A DNA stretch of 36,054 bases from Betaproteobacteria bacterium (lineage in GTDB: Bacteria > Pseudomonadota > Gammaproteobacteria > Burkholderiales > Burkholderiaceae_E), in the NCBI GenBank assembly GCA_018970865.1, contig JAGWVN010000029.1, positions 1-36,054 of the forward strand, given 5' to 3'. This document shows, in pieces, positions 26,502-36,054 of this stretch. A program made the position numbers and the translations under genes. Position 1 is the first letter of the stretch. Each line of letters opens with the position of its first letter. The notes beneath the pieces are model-generated. The model was not told the DNA's origin and ran no database searches. It worked only from the letters and a program-made list of their open reading frames with translations.

Positions 26502-27449
26502 TCAGCCCGCCGGGGGCGGCTCGGTCATGGCCGCCTCGACCACCGCCCGTCCCAGCGTGGGCGCGAACTGCGCGATGAAGGCATAGACATAGTCGCGCAG
26601 GTAGCTGCCGCGGCGCACCGCCAGCCGGGTGAGGTTCACCGCGAAGAGGTGTCGGGCATCGATGGCCGACAGCGCGGTGTCGCGCGCCTCGTCGTGCGCG
26701 ATCGCGGCGATGATGCCCACGCCCATGCCGAGCTCGACATAGGTCTTGATCACATCGGCATCCATGGCCGAGAGCACGATGTTCAGGGGCAGACCGGCGC
26801 GGCGGAAGGCATCGTCGATATGCCGGCGCCCGGTGAAACCGGTCTCGTAGGTGACGATCGGGAAATCCGCCAGGCGGGCCAGCGTGAGCGCCTCGCCACG
26901 GGCCTGCGCCAGCGCCAGCGGATGACCGCGCGGCACGATCACCGAGTGCGTCCAGCGGTAGCAGGGCAGCGCGGCGAGCTCGGGGAACTCGGCCAGCGCC
27001 TCGGTGGCGATGCCGATGTCGGCGTCACCGTCGATCAGCCACTGCGCGATCTGACGCGGCGAGCCCTGATGGATGTGCAGCGCCACCTCGGGATGGGCTT
27101 GGCTGAAGTCGCGCACCGCCTGGGGCAGCGCGTAACGGGCCTGCGAGTGGGTGGCGGCGATGGTCAGCGTGCCCCGGCCCTGCGCGGCGAAATCCTCGCT
27201 GGCGCGACGCAGGTTCTCGGCCTGCTGCAGCAGCGACTCGATGATCGGCAGCACCGCCTCGCCCGGGCCGGTGAGCCCGGTGAGGCGCTTGCCGGCCCGG
27301 TGGAAGAGCGCCATGCCGAGCTCATCCTCGAGCTCGCGGATCTGGCGGCTGACGCCGGGCTGGGAGGTGTGCAGGACCTGCGCGACCTGGGTGAGGTTGA
27401 AGCCGCGGCGCACGGTCTCGCGCACGGATCGCAACTGCTGGAAATTCAC
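26502..27449 (-). CDS. cysB: CysB-family LysR-type transcriptional regulator
   Basis: A 315-residue regulator. The N-terminal winged helix (MNFQQLRSVRETVRRGFNLT, then VAQVLHTSQPGVSRQIRELE) and the effector domain features (ATHSQARYALPQAV, IVTYETGFTGRRHIDDAF, MDADVIKTYVELGMGVGIIA) are those of the CysB/Cbl branch, which senses N-acetylserine or sulfate-related ligands and activates cysteine and sulfonate-sulfur genes. The likely target beside it is the four-rhodanese gene downstream. It is on the same strand as the ureide operon, 129 bp after its last gene, and is probably not its regulator. The start at 27449 has GTGAATG context without a clear Shine-Dalgarno sequence. Confidence 0.85.
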   Translation of the reverse strand: MNFQQLRSVRETVRRGFNLTQVAQVLHTSQPGVSRQIRELEDELGMALFHRAGKRLTGLTGPGEAVLPIIESLLQQAENLRRASEDFAAQGRGTLTIAATHSQARYALPQAVRDFSQAHPEVALHIHQGSPRQIAQWLIDGDADIGIATEALAEFPELAALPCYRWTHSVIVPRGHPLALAQARGEALTLARLADFPIVTYETGFTGRRHIDDAFRRAGLPLNIVLSAMDADVIKTYVELGMGVGIIAAIAHDEARDTALSAIDARHLFAVNLTRLAVRRGSYLRDYVYAFIAQFAPTLGRAVVEAAMTEPPPAG

Positions 27450-27578: not shown

Positions 27579-28256
27579 TCAGCCGGCCGCCTGCAGTGCC
27601 GCGAAAGGCGCCGCCCAGCCCACGATGCCACCCTGCGCGACGATCATCTCGATCGCGCTGTCGCGGAAATGCGGGAAGTAGCTCGCCGTGGCGTCCGACA
27701 CCAGCAGGCTGTCATAGCCGCGGTCATTGGCCTCGCGCATGGTGGTCTGCACGCAGACCTCGGTGGTGACGCCGGCGAAGATCAGCCGCTCCACCCCCCA
27801 GTCGGTCAGGAGCCGGCCGAGCTCGGTGCCGTAGAACGCGCCCTTGCCCGGCTTGGCCAGCACGCACTCGCCAGGAAGAGGCGAGAGCTCGGGGATGAAA
27901 TCGCTGCCCGGCTCGCCGTCGATCAGGATGCGGCCCATCGGGCCCGGGTCGCCGATGCGCTGGCTGGGCAGACCGCGCTCGCGCTTGGCCGGCGGGCAGT
28001 CCGACAGATCGGGCCGGTGGCACTCCTTGGTGTGCACGATGCGCAGGCCCTGCGCGCGCGCCCAGTCGAGCAGCGCCCGCGCGGGCGCGACCGCGGCGCG
28101 CAGATGCGAGACATCGTTGCCGAGGGACTCGCCGAAGCCGCCGGGCTCGAGAAAGTCGCGCTGCATGTCGATCATCATCAGCGCGGTGCGCGCCGGACGG
28201 AACCGGAAGGGCGAGGGACGGGCGGGCACTTCCCGCCAGGCGTTCGGATCAGGCAT
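27579..28256 (-). CDS. Isochorismatase-like cysteine hydrolase, second ureide hydrolase of the operon
   Basis: A 225-residue amidohydrolase of the isochorismatase-like fold. Catalytic triad by position: D30 (MMIDMQRDF), K135 (CVLAKPGKGAFYGTEL) and C168 ([18 protein letters not shown]). It is a clear paralogue of the biuret hydrolase three genes earlier, with the same HRPDLSD, RIGDPGPMGRIL and KPGKG blocks, but the region after the nucleophile differs (SDATASYFPHFRDSAIEM) and the N-terminal extension is shorter. Known relatives hydrolyse biuret, triuret, ureidoacrylate or N-carbamoyl compounds, so the likely substrate is another carbamoyl amide; triuret is one candidate. The start at 28256 overlaps the end of the ATPase gene by 8 bp, with a GGTGG site; it is the last gene of the operon. 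Confidence 0.8.
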   Translation of the reverse strand: MPDPNAWREVPARPSPFRFRPARTALMMIDMQRDFLEPGGFGESLGNDVSHLRAAVAPARALLDWARAQGLRIVHTKECHRPDLSDCPPAKRERGLPSQRIGDPGPMGRILIDGEPGSDFIPELSPLPGECVLAKPGKGAFYGTELGRLLTDWGVERLIFAGVTTEVCVQTTMREANDRGYDSLLVSDATASYFPHFRDSAIEMIVAQGGIVGWAAPFAALQAAG

Positions 28257-29886
28257 GTCCACCCATGGCCTTGCCGATGCGATCCCGATCGGCTTCGGGT
28301 TGCAGGGATTCGAGCACGATGCGACCGCCATTGATCACCAGCACGCGGTCGGAGAGCTCGAGCAGCTCGTCGAGGTCCTCGCTCACCAGCAGCACCGCGC
28401 AGCCCGAGTCGCGCGCGTCGCGCAGTCGCTGATGGATCTCGGCCGAGGCCTGGAAGTCGAGACCGAACACCGGGTTCATCACGATCAGGAGACGGGCCTC
28501 GCGGGAGAGTTCGCGCGAGAGCACCGCGCGCTGGATGTTGCCGCCGGAGAGCCGCTCGATCGGCTCGTCGGGACCGCGGGTCTTGATGCGGAAGGCCTCG
28601 ATCGCCTGCTCGGCGGCGCTGCGAAACGCCGCCGGCCGCAGCCAGCCGCCCACGGACCAGGGCGCGCGGTCGAAGTCACGCAGGGCGAGGTTGCCGGCCA
28701 CCGACAGGCCCGGCACGCAGGCGTTGTGCAGCGGCTCCTCGGGCAGCGCCGCCACGCGGTGACGCAGGTAGTCGGCCCGGCTGGCACGAAACGGCTCGCC
28801 GAAGACCCGCACCTCGCCAGCCGCCCGGGCGCGCTGGCCGGTGAGCGCCTGCACCAGCTCGCGCTGGCCGTTGCCCGACACGCCGGCCACACCCACGATG
28901 CTGCCGGCGGCCACCGCCAGATCGAGACCGCGCACAGCCGGCAGGCCGAGGTCGTTGTCGACCACCAGGCCGCGCACCGCCAGCGGCAGGGGCGCTGCCG
29001 ATGCGCCCGCGGTAGTCACGCCGGCCGCCCCCGCGGCGCTTGGGCTCTCGGGCGCGCCGGTCGCCGCCGGCGAGGACACCGGTCGCGGCCGCCGGGCGGT
29101 GGCACCGGCCAGCGACTGGCCGACCATCAGCGTGGCCAGGCGGTCGGCATCCATTTCGGCGACCCGGCCGGCGCCGGCGAGCTGACCGCGGCGCAGCACG
29201 GTGACCTCGTCGGCGAAGCGCTCGACCTCGCGGAACTTGTGGGTGATGAGCAGCGCGGTCATGCGCCCGCCGTGCGCGAGGTCGCGCACCGAGCTGAGCA
29301 GCTCGTCGGCCTCCTCGGGCGTGAGCACCGAGGTGGGTTCGTCGAGGATGAGGAAGCGGTTGCGGGCATAGAGCTGCTTGAGCAGCTCGGTCTTCTGCTT
29401 TTCGCCCGCCGACAGGTCGGCCACCCGGGCATCGGGATCGACCCGGAAAGGCACGCTGCCCAGAAAGTCGTCGAGCTCCGCGCGCTGGCGGCGCCAGTCG
29501 ATGCGCGCCGGCAGACCGCCGCGCGCCAGGGCGAGGTTCTCGCCCACGGTCATGGAGGGCACCAGGGTGAAGTGCTGGTACACCATGCCGATCCCGAGCT
29601 CGCGGGCGCGCTGCGGCGACGCGATCTCGGTCTCGCGGCCCTCGATGAGGATGCTGCCGCCATCGGGCCGGTGGAAACCCACCAGGCATTTCACCAGCGT
29701 GCTCTTGCCCGCGCCGTTCTCGCCGAGCAGGGCATGCACCGTGCCGGGCTGCACGGTGATCGAGACCCGGTCCAGCGCGACGAAGTCCCCGAAGCGCTTG
29801 GTCAGCTCGTAGGTGGCCAGCGCCAGCGCGCCGGTGGGCGCGCGCGCCGGCGCCACCACCGCGCCGTCGACCCGCAGGACTTCCAT
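28249..29886 (-). CDS. ABC transporter ATPase, BMP/nucleoside (YufO-NupO) type
   Basis: A 545-residue double ATPase of the ribose/nucleoside class, energising uptake with the two permeases and the BMP-type receptor of the same operon. First half: Walker A GENGAGKST, Q-loop MVYQHFTLVPSMTVGENLAL, signature LSAGEKQKTELLKQLYARNR, Walker B FLILDEPTSVLTPEE. The second half has the degenerate phosphate loop GVSGNGQRELVQAL and LSGGNIQRAVLSREL, with MNPVFGLDFQ in place of a full Walker B; such a weak second site is normal in this class. An Ala/Gly/Pro-rich insertion separates the halves. The start is the ATG at 29886, with GAGG upstream, 11 bp after the biuret hydrolase stop. Lying between two hydrolase genes, away from the permeases, is unusual. 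Confidence 0.92.
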   Translation of the reverse strand: MEVLRVDGAVVAPARAPTGALALATYELTKRFGDFVALDRVSITVQPGTVHALLGENGAGKSTLVKCLVGFHRPDGGSILIEGRETEIASPQRARELGIGMVYQHFTLVPSMTVGENLALARGGLPARIDWRRQRAELDDFLGSVPFRVDPDARVADLSAGEKQKTELLKQLYARNRFLILDEPTSVLTPEEADELLSSVRDLAHGGRMTALLITHKFREVERFADEVTVLRRGQLAGAGRVAEMDADRLATLMVGQSLAGATARRPRPVSSPAATGAPESPSAAGAAGVTTAGASAAPLPLAVRGLVVDNDLGLPAVRGLDLAVAAGSIVGVAGVSGNGQRELVQALTGQRARAAGEVRVFGEPFRASRADYLRHRVAALPEEPLHNACVPGLSVAGNLALRDFDRAPWSVGGWLRPAAFRSAAEQAIEAFRIKTRGPDEPIERLSGGNIQRAVLSRELSREARLLIVMNPVFGLDFQASAEIHQRLRDARDSGCAVLLVSEDLDELLELSDRVLVINGGRIVLESLQPEADRDRIGKAMGGHA

Positions 29887-29897
29887 GACCGGCGACC

Positions 29898-30599
29898 TCA
29901 GCCCAGCGCGGCCAGCACCGCGGCCGAATCGGCCACCGCGCCGAACACGCCGCCCTGCATCTTGATCATCTTGATGGCCGCGAGGTGGTTGCCGAGATCG
30001 GTGGCGCCGGTGCAGTCCTCGAGCATCAGGCACTCGAAGCCGCGATCATTGGCCTCGCGCATGGTGGTGTGCACGCAGACATCGGTGGTGATGCCGGTGA
30101 GGATCAGATTGCGGATGCCACGGGTGCGCAGCACCAGCTCCAGGTCGGTGGCGCAGAACGAGCCCTTGCCGGGCTTGTCGATGATCACCTCGCCGGGCGC
30201 CGGCGCGAGCTCGGGGATGATCTCCCAGCCCGGCTCGCCCCGCACCAGGATGCGGCCGCAGGGCCCGGCATCGCCGATGCCCGCGCCGATGCGCTGCGAG
30301 CGCCAGCGCTTGTTGGCCGGCAGATCCGACAGGTCGGGCCGATGGCCCTCGCGGGTGTGGATGATCGTGAAGCCGAGGGCGCGCATGCGGGCCATCACGC
30401 GGCGGATCGGCTCGATCGGCGCGCGGGTGAGGCTCAGGTCATAGCCCATCTTGTCGACATAGCCGCCCACGCCGCAGAAGTCGGTCTGCATGTCGATCAC
30501 CACCAGGGCGGTGTTGGCCGGGCGCAGGTCGGCATCGAAGGGCCAGGGATAGGGGTCGGCGGCAACGCAGGGCAGCGCGGCGGAAGCGGAAGTGCTCAT
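29898..30599 (-). CDS. biuH: Biuret hydrolase (isochorismatase-like cysteine hydrolase)
   Basis: A 233-residue enzyme predicted to split biuret into allophanate and ammonia. The start at 30599 gives [20 protein letters not shown]; the frame further upstream runs over the formamidase gene end. The residues of the known triad of Rhizobium leguminosarum BiuH (Asp36, Lys142, Cys175) fall at exactly these numbers: D36 in [12 protein letters not shown]142 in [18 protein letters not shown]175 in [11 protein letters not shown]. Other blocks match what I remember of that enzyme: [46 protein letters not shown] and [13 protein letters not shown]. The allophanate produced would be the substrate of the divergent gene at 35132. 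No database comparison was made. Confidence 0.85.
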
Positions 30600-30627
30600 G
30601 ACGGAGTCCGGAAAAGGAGAGGCGCGC

Positions 30628-31635
30628 TCAGGGCAGCCGGTTGCCGGGATCGTGATCGCGCTGCGGCGGCGCGAAGCCGCAGGAGCGGCCATCGACATGC
30701 TCGACCTCGTCCTCCCAGGGCAGCCGGTAGCGGCCGTTCACCATGTCCTGCATGAAGGTGTAGGGGCAGTCCTGCGCGCCGCCGCGCACCGCCACATAGC
30801 CGCGGTGCCAGAGCTGATAGATGTTGTTCTCGACGCCCCAGTGACGGCGGGCCTCGCGCACCAGGTCGGGCCGGACCTCGCAGGTGATGATCTCGTCGGG
30901 ACGATGGCTGCCCATGACCAGCGGCTCGCCGTCGAAGTTGACGAACATGCCCTCGCCCATCGAGTCGAAGGTGCCGTCGCTGCCGCACATGCACACGCTG
31001 GCGGTGACCATGAGATTCTGGAAGGCATTGGCCTGGTTGGTGATGCGCCAGGAATGCCGGATGGGCGCGGTGTAGCCCGCGGTGCGGATCATGAGTTCGG
31101 CGCCCTTGTAGGCGCACTCGCGGGCCATCTCGGGGAACATCCCGTCATGGCAGATGATCAGCGCGAGCTTCACGCCGCGCGGGCCGTCGATCACCGGGAT
31201 GCCGAGGTTGCCCGGCTCCCAGGGCTCCACCGGCACCCAGGGATGCAGCTTGCGGTAGTAGAGCGCGATGCGGCCGGTGTCATCGATGATCAGGCCGCTG
31301 TTGTACGGATTGCCGTTGGGGTTGAGCTCCATGATCGAGAAGCAGCCCCAGATGCGATGCTCGACGCAGGCCGCCTTGAAGGCGGCGACCTCGGGCCCGT
31401 CGAGCGAGCACATCAGCGCGGGGTCGGTGTTCATCGACAGGCCGTGCAGCGAGTACTCGGGGAACACCACCAGATCCATCGAGGGCATGTTGCGCCGGGC
31501 CTTGCCGACCATCTCGACGATGCGCGCGGTCTGCGCGGCAAGTTGCGCCGGGGTGTCGACCACCGGCAGCTGCGACTGCACCAGGCCGACCACCACCCCG
31601 TTGGGTGACTTGTTCAGGCCGCCGAGTCCGGACAT
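30628..31635 (-). CDS. amiF: Formamidase (AmiF type, nitrilase superfamily)
   Basis: A 335-residue hydrolase predicted to convert formamide into formate and ammonia. The catalytic triad is E60 ([11 protein letters not shown]), K129 ([10 protein letters not shown]) and C162 ([11 protein letters not shown]); in Helicobacter pylori AmiF the triad is E60, K133, C166, so spacing is conserved. Diagnostic AmiF stretches are [51 protein letters not shown] and the ending [15 protein letters not shown]. Aliphatic amidase AmiE is the nearest alternative, and formamidase is favoured by these segments. GGAG lies upstream of the ATG at 31635. It sits between the second permease (39 bp) and biuret hydrolase (28 bp) in the same operon, so it probably acts on a product or co-substrate of the same nitrogen source. 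Confidence 0.85.
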
Positions 31636-31674: not shown

Positions 31675-32601
31675 TCAGCGGGTGAGGCTGAGTTCGCCCG
31701 GCGCGCCGGCCAGCGAGCGCCGCGCCGAGGAGGTGGCCACCATCACCGCCAGCGTGAGCACATAGGGCGCGGCGTTCCAGAGGTGGTAGCCCTGAACGAT
31801 GCCGATCGCCTGCAGGGCCGGTCCGATCGCGCCGGCGCCGCCAAAGAGCAGGGCCGCCCACACGCAGCCCACCGGGCTCCATCGGGCGAAGATCACCAGC
31901 GCCACCGCCATCACGCCCTGGCCGCTGGAAAGCGCCTCGTTCCAGCTGCCCGGGTAGTAGAGCGAGAGGAAAGACCCACCCACCCCGGCCATGAAGCCGC
32001 CGGCCGCCGTGCTCCAGGCGCGCACGGCGTTGACCGGGAAGCCGAGGGCGCGCGCCGCGTTCGCGCTGTCGCCCACGGTGCGGATCACCAGGCCCCAGCG
32101 GGTGCTGCGCAAGGCCCAGGCCATGAGCAGCGCGCACACGATGCCCACCAGCAGCAGCGCGTTGACCTGCAGGGCCGCCTGCAGCGCCGGCGAATCGCTC
32201 CAGCCCCCGAGCGCGATGGCCGGCAGCCGCGGCGCGGTGGGTTGGACATAGTCCTTGCCGAAGAAGAAGGCGAGACCCAGGCCGAGGGTCATCAGGGCGA
32301 TGCCCAGGGCCACATCATTGACGCGCGGCAGGCTGCAGAGCAGCCCGTGCACCAGGCCGAACACCACCCCGAACAGGCCGGCGGCGAGCACGCCCAGCCA
32401 GGCCGAGCCGCTGTGGTAGGCGATGGCATAGCCGCTCATGGCGCCGAAGACCATCGTGCCTTCCAGGCCGAGGTTGATGCGGCCGGCGCGCTCGGTGAGC
32501 GCCTCGCCGAGGCTGACGAACAGAAAGGGGGTCGAGACCCGCAGCGCGCCGCCGAGGATGGCCGCCAGCACGGTGAGCCAGGCGCTTTCATCACCGCTCA
32601 T
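31675..32601 (-). CDS. ABC transporter permease, BMP/nucleoside type (second permease)
   Basis: A 308-residue integral membrane protein with about eight hydrophobic segments, of the branched-chain/ribose-type permease family (BPD_transp_2). The N-terminus TVLAAILGGALRVSTPFLFV, then GEALTERAGRINLGLEGTMV, is the marker block of YufQ/NupQ-like permeases that work with BMP receptors; the cytoplasmic coupling-helix region is RTVGDSANAARALGFPVNAV. The start at 32601 overlaps the stop of the first permease (ATGA) and uses a GGAGG site inside it; the longer frame to 32943 is a shadow. It should form the channel as a heterodimer with the gene before it. Confidence 0.9.
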   Translation of the reverse strand: MSGDESAWLTVLAAILGGALRVSTPFLFVSLGEALTERAGRINLGLEGTMVFGAMSGYAIAYHSGSAWLGVLAAGLFGVVFGLVHGLLCSLPRVNDVALGIALMTLGLGLAFFFGKDYVQPTAPRLPAIALGGWSDSPALQAALQVNALLLVGIVCALLMAWALRSTRWGLVIRTVGDSANAARALGFPVNAVRAWSTAAGGFMAGVGGSFLSLYYPGSWNEALSSGQGVMAVALVIFARWSPVGCVWAALLFGGAGAIGPALQAIGIVQGYHLWNAAPYVLTLAVMVATSSARRSLAGAPGELSLTR

Positions 32602-33689
32602 CGCGGCACCTCCGGGGTGGGCGCAGCCTGCGGACCGCGCAGGGCGATCGGACGCAGCCGCCAGTTGATGCGGCCGTGCATCGCCTCGCAGGCGAGGATC
32701 GACACGAAGAGCAGGCCCTGCAGCACCTGGGTGGTGGCATCGGGCAGGTCGAGGCGACGCTGCAGCAGGCTGCCGGCCGCCGCGATGCCGCCGAGCAGCA
32801 CCGCCACCGGCACCGTGGCCAGGGGCTGCTGGCGCGCGATGAAGGCCACCAGGATGCCGGTATAGCCGAAGCCGCCGAGCAGCGAGGCGTTGGCCGACCC
32901 GTGCACCGCCAGCACCTCGATCGCGCCGGCCAGGCCCGCGCACATCCCGCCAAGCGCGCAGGCCGCGACCAGCAGCGCCGACACCGGCAGCCCGACCAGG
33001 CGGGCGGCGCGCAGATTGCCGCCGGCCACCCGCATCGCGAAGCCGGCGGTGGTGCGCGAGACCAGCAGCTGCGCGAGCACCGCGGCCACCACGCCGATGG
33101 CCAGCCCCCAGTGCAGGTCGGTGCCGGGCATGTTGCCGAGCATGGTCGCCTCGGGCAGGGGATGGGTGGAGGGTTTGTTCAGACTGGCCGGATCGCGCAT
33201 GGGACCGTCGACCAGGTGGTTGAAGAGCGCGATGGCGATGTACGAGATCAGCAGGCTGGCGATGGTCTCGTTCATGCCACGCCAGGCGCGCAGCGCGCCG
33301 GCGGCCGCGTTGGAGAGCGCGCCCGCGGCCATGCCGGCGGCGCAGGCGATGGTGATGGCCGTCAGCGGGCCGGCCCCGGCCTGCGAGGCCGCGAGTCCGG
33401 CCGCGGCGGCCGCCAGCCCGCCCAGGGCGAGCGCGCCTTCGCCGCCGATCATCACCAGTCCCACCTGGGCCGGAATGGCCACCGCCAGCCCGGTCAGGAT
33501 GAGCGGCGCGGAACGCAGCAGGGTGTTCTGCCAGGCGAACGAGCTGGCGAAAGCGCCCTCGAAGATGGTCACGACCACCTCGAGGGGATTGCGGCCGATG
33601 GCCAGCACGAACAGCGCGAAGAGGATCAGCCCCCCGACCACGCCCGCGAGCGCGATCAGGGTGGACTGCAGGCCGCGAGAAGACGCCAT
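32598..33689 (-). CDS. ABC transporter permease, BMP/nucleoside type (first permease)
   Basis: A 363-residue membrane protein with nine or ten hydrophobic segments, of the YufP/NupP-like permease class. Features are GRNPLEVVVTIFEGAFASSF, then LLRSAPLILTGLAVAIPAQV with LVMIGGEGALALGGLAAAAA, the typical G-E-G-x-L-x-x-G block, and later RVAGGNLRAARLVGLPVSAL as coupling region and LLGGFGYTGILVAFIARQQP. The order receptor, long permease, short permease is standard for this transporter class, with the ATPase normally adjoining; here the ATPase is moved behind two hydrolase genes. It starts 34 bp after the receptor gene. Confidence 0.9.
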   Translation of the reverse strand: MASSRGLQSTLIALAGVVGGLILFALFVLAIGRNPLEVVVTIFEGAFASSFAWQNTLLRSAPLILTGLAVAIPAQVGLVMIGGEGALALGGLAAAAAGLAASQAGAGPLTAITIACAAGMAAGALSNAAAGALRAWRGMNETIASLLISYIAIALFNHLVDGPMRDPASLNKPSTHPLPEATMLGNMPGTDLHWGLAIGVVAAVLAQLLVSRTTAGFAMRVAGGNLRAARLVGLPVSALLVAACALGGMCAGLAGAIEVLAVHGSANASLLGGFGYTGILVAFIARQQPLATVPVAVLLGGIAAAGSLLQRRLDLPDATTQVLQGLLFVSILACEAMHGRINWRLRPIALRGPQAAPTPEVPR

Positions 33690-33723: not shown

Positions 33724-34839
33724 TCAGCCGGGGATCGCGCCGATCACGCCCTCGACCAGGTAGTTCATCTTCTCGAGCTCGACATTGGTCATCTCGAGCG
33801 AAGTGCCGGCGGCGATCACGGTGTTGCCCTTGTTGTCCTTCAGCGGGCCCTTGAAGATCGCGAAATCGCCGGTCGTGAGCGCGGCCTTCGCCTTGTCGCC
33901 GGCCTCCTTGGCCTTGGCCGACACCGAGGCGCCGTAGGGCGACATCTTCACGAAGCCTTCCTTCATGCCACCGCGCACGAAGTTGGGCATGGGCTTGCCC
34001 TCGGCAGCGGCCGCGATCAGCAGCTTGTACGGCGTGGTCCAGTCCCACTCGGCGCCGGTGAGATAGCCCTTGGGCGCGAGCTTGGCCTGGCTGGCGTGAT
34101 AGCCGCAGCTCATGATGCCGCGCTTCTCGGCGGTCTCGATGACCACCTTCGGACCGTCCACATGGCAGGTGACCACATCGACGCCCTGGTCGACCAGGCT
34201 GTTGGTGGCCTCGGCCTCCTTGACCGGCAGCGACCAGTCACCGGTGAAGATCACCTGGGTGGTGATCGAGGGATCGACCGAGCGCGCGCCCATGGTGAAG
34301 GCGTTGATGTTGCGCAGCACCTGCGGGATCGGCTTGGCGGCAATGAAGCCGAGCTTCTTCTTCTTGCTCATGTGTCCGGCGACCACGCCCGAGACATACT
34401 GGGCGCCATCGATGTAGCCGAAGAACGAGCCGGTGTTCTTGGGGTGCTTGCCCTCGGTCCACAGGCCGCCGCAGTGCGCGAAGCGCACATTCGGATACTT
34501 CTCGGCCATCTTGAGCATGTGCGGGTCGAAGTAGCCGAAGGAGGTGGCGAAGATCAGCGAGGCCTTGTCCTGGTTGATCATGGCCTCCATGGACTTCTGC
34601 ACCGCCACGGTCTCGGGCACCTTCTCCTCCTCCACCACCTTCACGCCCGGCATCTTCTTGATCATGGCCGCGGCCTGGGCCTGGGCCTGGTTGTAGCCGA
34701 AGTCGTCGCGCGGGCCGACATAGATCACGCCGACCGTGATCGGCTTGGCCTGGGCGAAGGCCGACAGCGGCAGGCCGGCCGCCGAGACGAGGCCGGCCGC
34801 GCCGGCGGAGGTGACGATGAGACGACGGGATGCATCCAT
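33724..34839 (-). CDS. BMP-family ABC transporter substrate-binding protein
   Basis: A 371-residue periplasmic receptor, first gene of the leftward operon. The start at 34839 follows AGGAG with 7-bp spacing. The signal peptide MDASRRLIVTSAGAAGLVSA ending near AFAQA has twin arginines and a long, weakly hydrophobic core, suggesting Tat export. The mature protein begins KPITVGVIYVGPRDDFGYNQ, the BMP (PF02608) opening, continues with ASLIFATSFGYFDPHMLKMA, and YIDGAQYVSGVVAGHMSKKK, and ends VELEKMNYLVEGVIGAIPG. The classic BMP proteins bind nucleosides; relatives in nitrogen operons bind other heterocycles or ureides. With biuret hydrolase, formamidase and allophanate hydrolase around it, a biuret-like ligand is the working guess. 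Confidence 0.92.
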   Translation of the reverse strand: MDASRRLIVTSAGAAGLVSAAGLPLSAFAQAKPITVGVIYVGPRDDFGYNQAQAQAAAMIKKMPGVKVVEEEKVPETVAVQKSMEAMINQDKASLIFATSFGYFDPHMLKMAEKYPNVRFAHCGGLWTEGKHPKNTGSFFGYIDGAQYVSGVVAGHMSKKKKLGFIAAKPIPQVLRNINAFTMGARSVDPSITTQVIFTGDWSLPVKEAEATNSLVDQGVDVVTCHVDGPKVVIETAEKRGIMSCGYHASQAKLAPKGYLTGAEWDWTTPYKLLIAAAAEGKPMPNFVRGGMKEGFVKMSPYGASVSAKAKEAGDKAKAALTTGDFAIFKGPLKDNKGNTVIAAGTSLEMTNVELEKMNYLVEGVIGAIPG

Positions 34840-34877
34840 GCTGAGGCTCCTGTATCGGTGAGGGGGAGAGTCGGTCG

Positions 34878-34892
34878 GCCGGACAGTCCGGC
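34878..34892. promoter_or_regulatory. GCCGGAC-A-GTCCGGC hairpin in the leader of the leftward operon
   Basis: A perfect 7-bp inverted repeat around one base, between the predicted transcription start (about 34899) and the receptor ATG (34839). A one-base loop is unlikely to form fully in RNA, so it may rather be a DNA site. Function unknown. Confidence 0.4.
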
Positions 34893-34903
34893 TTGTGTAC
34901 AAG
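34892..34903. promoter_or_regulatory. CTTGTGTACAAG palindrome at the leftward transcription start, possible GntR-type operator
   Basis: A 12-bp palindrome with arms CTTGT/ACAAG around GT. It resembles the TTGTnnACAA-like sites of FadR-subfamily GntR repressors and covers the predicted start of the leftward sigma-54 transcript. A sister sequence, identical at 10 of 12 positions, covers the rightward start (35097-35108). Confidence 0.5.
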
Positions 34904-34909
34904 GCCGAT

Positions 34910-34925
34910 TGCAAGTTCCTTGCCA
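34910..34925 (-). promoter_or_regulatory. Sigma-54 (-24/-12) promoter of the leftward ureide operon
   Basis: On the minus strand TGGCAAGGAACTTGCA (34925 to 34910) matches the sigma-54 consensus TGGCACG-N4-TTGCW, with GG and GC exactly 10 bp apart. Transcription would start near 34899, leaving a leader of about 60 nt before the receptor ATG at 34839. Confidence 0.75.
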
Positions 34926-34976
34926 GCTGGCCGCCACCCACCCGCCACCCTGGGCGCGGCAAGAAGCCTCCGGAAA

Positions 34977-34995
34977 GCGCACGCTGCTGGTGCGC
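34977..34995. promoter_or_regulatory. NtrC-like enhancer site 1
   Basis: GCGCAC-N7-GTGCGC, a perfect 6-bp inverted repeat. Its core GCAC-N7-GTGC has the spacing of NtrC sites (TGCACC-N5-GGTGCA). The centre is about 87 bp before the leftward and 114 bp before the rightward predicted transcription start, within the usual enhancer range. Confidence 0.6.
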
Positions 34996-35010
34996 CCGCA
35001 CCGCCGAGAG

Positions 35011-35025
35011 GCCCGATCCTGGTGC
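35011..35025. promoter_or_regulatory. NtrC-like enhancer site 2
   Basis: GCCC-N7-GTGC, one base off the NtrC core. Its right part is inside CTGGTGCGCCCGC, which occurs at 34987-34999 and again at 35019-35031, 32 bp apart. Three helical turns is the spacing of the paired NtrC enhancers at E. coli glnAp2. Confidence 0.5.
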
Positions 35026-35074
35026 GCCCGCCCGGTTTCCGGGCGAAACCGGCCGTCCGCCTGCGCCATCCTGC

Positions 35075-35090
35075 TGGCACAGGGATTGCA
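35075..35090 (+). promoter_or_regulatory. Sigma-54 (-24/-12) promoter of the allophanate hydrolase gene
   Basis: TGGCACAGGGATTGCA matches the sigma-54 consensus at every strongly conserved position, with GG and GC 10 bp apart. The predicted start near 35100 gives a leader of about 30 nt with AGGA before the ATG at 35132. Confidence 0.82.
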
Positions 35091-35096
35091 AGCCTT

Positions 35097-35108
35097 CTTG
35101 TATCCAAG
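35097..35108. promoter_or_regulatory. CTTGTATCCAAG palindrome at the rightward transcription start, possible GntR-type operator
   Basis: One base away from a perfect CTTGTATACAAG palindrome, and 10 of 12 bases the same as the site at 34892-34903. It covers the predicted start of the rightward sigma-54 transcript, so a repressor bound here would block the promoter. Confidence 0.5.
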
Positions 35109-35131
35109 AACACGCTGCCAGGACATTGCCG

Positions 35132-36054
35132 ATGGATCCGACCTGGATCACCCGATTCACCCAACCCAGAGCGGGGACCGACAACGGCCCGCTGGCCGGC
35201 CGGCGTTTCGCCGTCAAGGACAACATCGATGTGGCCGGCGAAGCCACCACGGCGGCCTGCCCGGCGTACAGCCGCCCGGCGTCCCGCTCGGCGACGGTGG
35301 TCGAGCGGCTGATGAGCGCAGGCGCGAGCCTGGTCGGCAAGACCAACCTCGACCAGTTCGCCTGTGGCCTGAACGGCAGCCGCTCGCCCTATGGCACGCC
35401 GCCCAACGCCTTCGATCCGGCGATCGTGCCCGGTGGCTCGAGCTCGGGCTCGGCGGTGGCCGTGGCCCGCGGCGAGGTCGACTTCGCCCTGGGCACCGAC
35501 ACCGCGGGCTCCGGCCGCGTGCCGGCGGCGCTGAACAACCTGGTGGGCCTCAAACCCAGCCGCGGCCTGATCAGCAATCGCGGTGTGGTGCCGGCCTGCC
35601 GCTCGATCGACTGCGTGTCGATCTTCACCACCACCGTGGCCGATGCCGTCGATGTGCTGCGCGTGGCCGCCGGCCACGACCCGGAAGACCCGTACTCCCG
35701 GGCCCGTCCGCTGGACCCCGCGTTCTTTCCCGAACGCTTCCGCTTCGGCGTGCCGCACGAGGACCAGCTCGAGTTCTTCGGCGATGCGCTCTCCAGGCTC
35801 GCCTTCGAGCAGGCCTGCGCGCGGCTGCGCCGGCTCGGCGGAGAACCGGTGCGCATCGACTACCAGCCCTTTGCCGAAGCCGCGGCGATGCTCTACGAGG
35901 ATGCCTTCGTGGCCGAGCGCTACGCCGGCATCCGTGAGTTCTACGATGCCCAGGCCGAGAGCAACCCCGAAGCCTTCGACCCGACGGTGCGCGCGATCAT
36001 CGGCTCGGGCCGCCGCTACAGCGCCGCCGACTGGTGTCAGGCCAGCGACATGCT
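35132..36054 (+). CDS. atzF: Allophanate hydrolase (AtzF type), cut by the right edge of the window
   Basis: The frame is open from the ATG at 35132 (AGGA 8 bp upstream) to the window end, 307 codons of a protein that is about 600 residues in the family. It is an amidase-signature hydrolase that breaks allophanate into ammonia and CO2. The Ser-cisSer-Lys triad is visible: K29 (RFAVKDNIDVAG), S103 (VPGGSSSGSAVA) and S127 (LGTDTAGSGRVPAAL). The separations of 74 and 24 residues equal those in Pseudomonas AtzF (Lys91, Ser165, Ser189). NNLVGLKPSRGLISNRGVVP and LEFFGDALSRLAFEQA are typical of allophanate hydrolases. Oddly, it begins about 60 residues later than usual, without the N-terminal helices. 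It is divergent from the biuret operon and shares its control region. No urea carboxylase gene is in the window. Confidence 0.9.
   Translation, partial: MDPTWITRFTQPRAGTDNGPLAGRRFAVKDNIDVAGEATTAACPAYSRPASRSATVVERLMSAGASLVGKTNLDQFACGLNGSRSPYGTPPNAFDPAIVPGGSSSGSAVAVARGEVDFALGTDTAGSGRVPAALNNLVGLKPSRGLISNRGVVPACRSIDCVSIFTTTVADAVDVLRVAAGHDPEDPYSRARPLDPAFFPERFRFGVPHEDQLEFFGDALSRLAFEQACARLRRLGGEPVRIDYQPFAEAAAMLYEDAFVAERYAGIREFYDAQAESNPEAFDPTVRAIIGSGRRYSAADWCQASDM

Follow-up and report, generated by a model that had tools for sequence, protein, structure and literature searches.

A divergent biuret/triuret control region with opposed sigma-54 promoters, NtrC-type sites and candidate GntR/FCD operators over both predicted starts

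Introduction

How is transcription controlled in a 292-bp gap (34840-35131) from which genes for the use of biuret and triuret depart in opposite directions? The gap is bounded exactly by the ATG at 34839 of a minus-strand gene and the ATG at 35132 of the allophanate hydrolase gene atzF. It lies in the window, by which we mean the whole stretch of 36,054 nucleotides analysed here, contig C50 of a 3.91-Mb source genome (G000). The original prediction for this gap was a single NtrC platform that fires two opposed sigma-54 promoters when nitrogen is short, one for a ureide operon and one for allophanate hydrolase.

A related arrangement has been described in Pseudomonas sp. ADP, where atzDGEHF diverges from a second operon that encodes the AtzT transporter and AtzR; sigma-54 promoters and induction by nitrogen starvation are reported for both (PMC6834077). 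In kind, therefore, such a two-way layout is already known. Our literature searches, which covered few subscription papers, gave among the matches listed no description of the control region reported here, and no study of a GntR/FCD regulator conserved with the operon in many Beta- and Gammaproteobacteria loci.

Results

Genes on either side of the gap

The putative operon on the minus strand, the gene that follows it and the first gene of the plus-strand cluster are as follows.

33724..34839, minus strand: BMP/PnrA-like substrate-binding protein, first gene of the operon (Pfam Bmp; best solved relative AtzT, 6pi5, E 6e-61)
32598..33689, minus strand: ABC permease (Pfam BPD_transp_2)
31675..32601, minus strand: ABC permease (Pfam BPD_transp_2)
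30628..31635, minus strand: formamidase-type amidohydrolase (NCBIfam PRK13287, 566 bits vs a cut-off of 406)
29898..30698, minus strand: biuret hydrolase BiuH (NCBIfam NF050097, 428 bits vs a cut-off of 370; PDB 6azo, 416 bits)
28249..29886, minus strand: ABC transporter ATPase with two ABC domains (Pfam ABC_tran, two stretches)
27579..28331, minus strand: TrtA-like isochorismatase-family hydrolase, probable triuret hydrolase (PDB 6xix, TrtA, 282 bits vs 203 for 6xjm, a biuret hydrolase)
26502-27449, minus strand, just downstream of the TrtA-like gene: CysB-family LysR regulator (PRK12684, 441 bits)
35132..36052, plus strand: atzF, allophanate hydrolase, first gene of its cluster (TIGR02713, 419 bits, under the cut-off of 511; 307 aa are present and the contig end cuts the gene)

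These assignments uphold atzF but not the label 'ureide': with its AtzT-like transporter, BiuH and TrtA-like hydrolase, the operon is one for biuret and triuret. The TrtA-like hydrolase scores below the BiuH cut-off (243 vs 370 bits) and retains in the alignment the catalytic Asp/Lys/Cys triad, the residue names being those of PMC7948467, which also identifies structure 6xix as TrtA. It is closer to TrtA than to biuret hydrolase, and it probably hydrolyses triuret.

For comparison we gathered 80 orthologous loci via the binding protein, many of them close relatives. One of these, L003, matches the window at ~93% identity over 5.6 kb and another contig of the source genome, C21, at 94.6% over 3.2 kb, and ~5.5 kb of L003 separates the two matches. 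Three genes stand in a row on C21: a fragment of an oligopeptide-type ABC ATPase, an amidase and a GntR/FCD regulator. Because L003 matches both contigs and C21 carries this gene row, the atzF cluster probably continues on C21. For a second relative, L004, the portion of the atzF cluster that was retrieved includes an ABC ATPase, an amidase and an AtzH-like gene.

Opposed sigma-54 promoters

Six elements could be placed in the gap; the NtrC-type sites and palindromes are given without strand.

34892..34903: palindrome CTTGTGTACAAG, a candidate GntR/FCD operator covering the predicted start (+1/+2) of the operon promoter (12/12 bases kept in L003 and L004)
34910..34925, minus strand: sigma-54 (-24/-12) promoter TGGCAAGGAACTTGCA of the transporter/biuret operon (16/16 bases kept in L003, 13/16 in L004)
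34979-34993, centre 34986: perfect NtrC-type site GCAC-N7-GTGC (perfect at the same place in L003, with 12/15 bases kept; perfect in L004, shifted by ~10 bp)
35011-35025, centre 35018: one-mismatch NtrC-type site GCCC-N7-GTGC (at the same place one-mismatch in L003, with 12/15 bases kept, and perfect in L004)
35075..35090, plus strand: sigma-54 (-24/-12) promoter TGGCACAGGGATTGCA of atzF (16/16 bases kept in L003, 12/16 in L004)
35095..35110: palindrome TTCTTGTATCCAAGAA, a candidate GntR/FCD operator covering the predicted start of the atzF promoter (15/16 bases kept in L003, 14/16 in L004)

The sigma-54 consensus used for scoring is TGGCACR-N4-TTGCW. Against it, TGGCAAGGAACTTGCA scores 11/12 and TGGCACAGGGATTGCA 12/12, as computed on the identical 16-mers of L003, and the GG-to-GC spacing is 10 bp in both. 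The sequence thus agrees with the two opposed -24/-12 promoters of the original prediction, including their 10-bp spacing, and adds that they are near-consensus and rare. The pattern TGGCANNNNNNTTGCW has nine matches in the 3.91-Mb genome, compared with one for a backwards-pattern control, and two of the nine are the promoters described here. From the genome density, we estimate the chance of two such promoters within one given 292-bp gap at ~2e-7. A chance origin of the promoters was set aside in view of this rarity and their conservation. RpoN is encoded in the genome (one match, 220 bits, contig C47).

Three of the other seven matches to TGGCANNNNNNTTGCW were placed: the first precedes a nitrate-type ABC transporter (C141), the second precedes a GntR paralogue (C177) and the third falls within the histidine-kinase gene adjoining ntrC (C5). 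The C141 site (L111 4752-4767, minus strand) scores 12/12 and precedes a transporter cluster that is likely another nitrogen-regulated unit; upstream of it, just a one-mismatch NtrC-type site was seen. The C177 site (L107 7116-7131, minus strand) also scores 12/12 and stands ~60 bp ahead of the GntR/FCD paralogue (52% to the L003 regulator). An inverted repeat, TTGGGATCCCAA, was found by eye between this site and the paralogue, and the genes beyond match the amidohydrolase and TctC families.

NtrC-type sites and a candidate activator

An NtrC enhancer is defined by paired GCAC-N7-GTGC sites upstream of a promoter. By this definition the gap contains such a pair, made up of one perfect and one single-mismatch site; the spacing of 32 bp between centres agrees with the original prediction, and the second site is imperfect. 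The centre of the pair (35002) nearly coincides with the midpoint between the promoters (35000). With starts placed by the usual -12 numbering, near 34899 on the minus strand and 35101 on the plus strand, the sites lie ~83-119 bp from the predicted starts, which bears out the 80-120 bp expected beforehand. Perfect GCAC-N7-GTGC has 139 matches in the genome, compared with 29 for a backwards control, and the chance of one perfect site in the gap is ~0.5-1%. The weight of these sites therefore rests on their position and conservation.

At glnA of the same genome, a 10/12 sigma-54 site is preceded by two perfect GCAC-N7-GTGC sites spaced 28 bp apart, and downstream of glnA come a histidine kinase gene and ntrC. 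The NtrC encoded there scores 681 bits against a curated cut-off of 559. PF00158 has nine matches in the genome; among the four strong ones, only that adjoining glnA passes the NtrC cut-off.

Conservation across orthologous loci

L003 and L004 are the only loci among the 80 with an adjacent, oppositely oriented AtzF match of at least 75% identity. The two-way arrangement therefore looks local to this genus, and a general conservation of the divergent layout was set aside. The binding protein itself is found at E 1e-80 or better in 12 of 74 genomes of the family, including three of 10 of the genus. Both L003 and L004 keep two opposed sigma-54 sites with two NtrC-type sites between them, at a spacing of 32 bp in L003 (one site with a mismatch) and 22 bp in L004 (both perfect). 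The L003 binding protein is 99% identical, and the spacer stretches between the promoters keep 29/53, 9/17 and 32/49 bases (~53-65%). In the leaders of L003, 45/52 bases are kept on the operon side and 15/21 on the atzF side. Conservation in L003 thus extends beyond the motifs to the operon leader, and the NtrC-type sites keep no more than 12/15 bases each. Comparison with orthologous intergenic regions, which the original prediction had named as a check, therefore came out in its favour: both promoters and two NtrC-type sites are retained in L003 and L004 despite a diverged spacer.

A weaker, possible second divergent case is seen in a Moraxellaceae MAG (L012, 9440-10000), where one perfect NtrC-type site lies between two promoters. 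A 12/12 promoter with a palindrome points toward the binding protein, and a 10/12 promoter with a palindrome points toward a divergent amidase (40% match). In another locus, L079, the operon is on a contig titled Klebsiella pneumoniae, perhaps through a mistake in binning or labelling.

Palindromes over both predicted starts

A palindrome of the CTTGTATACAAG type lies over the predicted start of each promoter, a feature absent from the original prediction. The centre of each lies 27.5 bp from the 5' T of its -24 box, as it does at both promoters of L003 and L004. The exact sequence CTTGTNNACAAG occurs once in the genome, as the operon palindrome described here. The atzF palindrome, in its one-mismatch form, is not rare by itself (38 places with at most one mismatch vs 53 for the control).

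We counted pairs across the loci as a sigma-54-like site of at least 10/12 with a palindrome of at least 11/16 located 10-60 bp downstream, and all 78 pairs were retained. The palindrome template was picked after viewing these loci, and the controls used the same template. The 78 pairs come from 330 sigma-54-like sites, occur in 69 of the 80 loci and represent 62 distinct promoter-palindrome combinations. In contrast, the count averaged 0.65 pairs over 20 shuffled sets and never exceeded 3, and looking upstream of these sites instead of downstream yielded one. Among the 78 pairs, the distance from the 5' T of the -24 box to the palindrome centre clusters at 19.5 bp (4), 27.5 bp (23) and 35.5 bp (20). 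These clusters (L003-L082) step by 8 bp and not by helical turns. By inspection, and with no count made, the pair commonly precedes the lead gene of a cluster, either the binding protein or atzF.

A candidate GntR/FCD regulator

A GntR/FCD gene is present in 67 of the 80 loci, downstream of atzF in the nearest relatives, and both the GntR and the FCD domain were confirmed in four relatives. The source genome has its own copy on C21 (2773-3483), with both domains present. The L003 gene is cut by the locus end, and the match in L010 has just 35% identity. No GntR gene was found in the fetched stretch of 13 of the 80 loci. A whole-genome search of 11 of those 13 genomes (L028 and L069 being left aside) found a GntR relative at 54-84% identity in nine, at 31% in one and none in one; provided that C20 of L004 is the same contig, the match in that genome has coordinates overlapping the end of the retrieved stretch.

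Residues E40, S50, R51, T52 and R55 do not vary in an alignment of 28 regulators (our own and 27 relatives). Their order and spacing are those of E34, S44, R45, T46 and R49 of Atu1419, residues described at the DNA interface of a protein that binds ATGTATACAT (PMC7797058). This Atu1419 site differs from the core TTGTATACAA of our palindromes in its two end bases alone. The motif, which is common to both target promoters, also fits the consensus given for FadR-subfamily GntR proteins (PMC4494728). The proposed link between the palindromes and the GntR/FCD protein rests on this motif type, the contact residues and co-occurrence, and we call the palindromes candidate operators. D141, H145, H189 and H211 also show no variation, and they are similar to the metal site of Atu1419 (N137, H141, H192 and H214; PMC7797058). 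From this likeness of the FCD metal site we infer a carboxylate effector; allophanate and carboxybiuret are guesses.

NtrC-type sites in the wider set

Of the 78 pairs, one on the minus strand of L010 was likely chance and was removed, and 10 of the remaining 77 were redundant, which left 67 promoters. We scanned 260 bp upstream of each, with 200 shuffles as the control. A perfect NtrC-type site was found at 16 of the 67 promoters (shuffle mean 0.985, maximum 6), and a site with at most one mismatch at 37 of the 67 (mean 17.7, maximum 29). No perfect site was found within 260 bp upstream at the other 51 promoters, and the activator there could therefore use degenerate NtrC sites or be another protein. 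NtrC-type sites are thus enriched in the wider set, but NtrC control is not demonstrable from sequence at every promoter. An ntrC mutant of Burkholderia cenocepacia was reported to grow better on biuret, not worse (PMC5491218). If that strain uses this operon, the result speaks against a simple NtrC requirement there.

Discussion

We propose that the divergent region of this biuret/triuret locus is activated by NtrC and sigma-54 under nitrogen limitation and is gated by a GntR-type repressor at both starts, a reading to which we give a probability of roughly 0.8. The idea of one NtrC platform between two sigma-54 promoters has gained from the comparison with L003 and L004, the presence of RpoN and NtrC and the sites at glnA; as an account of the region it was incomplete, as it had neither the palindromes nor the GntR/FCD regulator. 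According to our model, NtrC-P would bind the two central sites (34979-35025) when nitrogen is limiting, and bound NtrC would loop to either sigma-54 promoter. The leftward output would be the operon for the AtzT-type transporter, formamidase, BiuH and TrtA, and the rightward output would be the atzF gene cluster, the extents of both units being predicted. We infer that the GntR/FCD protein acts as a repressor rather than an activator: it would bind the palindrome over each start and keep both promoters closed. A compound of the pathway, possibly an intermediate with a carboxyl group (allophanate or carboxybiuret, for example), may release the repressor.

By themselves, the promoters and NtrC-type sites would suffice for a nitrogen-response circuit of the kind present at glnA in this genome, with the palindromes being non-regulatory or serving another protein. 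We consider this unlikely, since 69 of the 80 loci, against fewer than one expected, have a palindrome at a restricted distance behind sigma-54 sites, and the exact palindrome core occurs once in the genome. We are equally reluctant to assign the promoters to a different sigma-54 activator, with the GCAC-N7-GTGC sites as chance or accessory features. The genome does encode three other strong activators (C5:13219, C113 and C116), of which that on C113 also has ntrC as its best family, and most promoters of the wider set (51/67) lack a perfect site. However, none of the three passes the NtrC cut-off (405 vs 559 bits for C113) and two are closest to a PEP-CTERM-linked family; moreover, the window, L003 and L004 all have perfect or one-mismatch sites between their promoters, and ammonia is a product of the pathway.

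It is quite improbable that the palindromes are bound by the CysB-family LysR regulator instead of the GntR protein. Its gene comes after the operon on the same strand, but no ORF at that position is among those conserved across the loci and L004 has none there, whereas the GntR gene is in 67 of the 80. The fit of the motif to the FadR-subfamily GntR consensus (PMC4494728) and the near-identity of the Atu1419 site to the core also point away from a LysR protein. We find it hardly credible that all of the motifs are chance matches and that a housekeeping sigma factor transcribes both units. Single motifs of this kind can arise by chance, and one of the nine genome matches is inside the histidine-kinase gene next to ntrC, but joint occurrence, symmetry and conservation all argue against such an origin here.

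Our preferred reading, NtrC/sigma-54 activation gated by a GntR-type repressor, can be set beside several known systems. In Pseudomonas ADP the regulator AtzR is a LysR-type protein that responds to cyanuric acid, whereas here it is a candidate GntR/FCD protein with palindromes over both starts. The likeness to atzDGEHF and atzRSTUVW is otherwise close: in both cases an atzF operon faces an ABC transporter operon, and the binding protein of the window is closest in the PDB to AtzT. The ADP divergon is marked by the cyanuric acid hydrolase AtzD and by AtzR control of both operons. The enzymes here are BiuH and a TrtA-like hydrolase, and neither AtzD nor AtzR was seen among the genes examined, which come from two contigs that lack ~5.5 kb of the atzF cluster. 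What would be new relative to ADP is the specific regulator, a GntR/FCD candidate with start-site palindromes in the place of AtzR. The core enzyme set of the window is shared with the triuret/biuret pathway TrtA-BiuH-AtzF (PMC7948467); the main text of that paper makes no mention of GntR, and its one word that begins with 'regulat' stands in the title of a reference. A gntR-family regulator is among the genes of biuH contigs of ammonia oxidisers in the legend of a synteny figure, in which sites are not described (PMC12625717).

The hut operon of Pseudomonas, with HutC, NtrC and CbrB at hutU, is a precedent for combining NtrC activation with a repressor of the GntR superfamily (PMC8871633). 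HutC, however, is placed in a different GntR subfamily (PMC4494728) from the regulator here, and in the hut account just hutU is described as NtrC-activated (PMC8871633), whereas here sigma-54 promoters point in both directions. The contact residues of Atu1419, a GntR/FCD protein of the VanR group from Agrobacterium that binds the 10-bp palindrome ATGTATACAT, have invariant counterparts in our regulators. Atu1419 is described as acting in hydroxycinnamate degradation at promoters with predicted -10/-35 boxes (PMC7797058), and the promoters here are of the sigma-54 type.

Atu1419 also bridges palindromes 190 bp apart by DNA looping (PMC7797058), and the two palindromes of the window are 205 bp apart. 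A tetrameric GntR/FCD repressor might, by analogy, bridge them, loop out the NtrC enhancer so as to block its reach and shut both promoters at once, until a pathway carboxylate opens both. We regard this extension of the model as doubtful. Helical phasing was considered as support for the loop and rejected: the spacing is 205 bp in the window and L003 and 259 bp in L004, without a consistent phase, and therefore lends the loop no support. If the extension were true, a repression loop would be built round a shared sigma-54 enhancer.

The arrangement that we propose places a candidate substrate operator directly over the sigma-54 starts on each side of a single shared enhancer. The proposed control circuit for the use of biuret and triuret, the latter a contaminant of urea fertiliser (PMC7948467), is concrete and testable.
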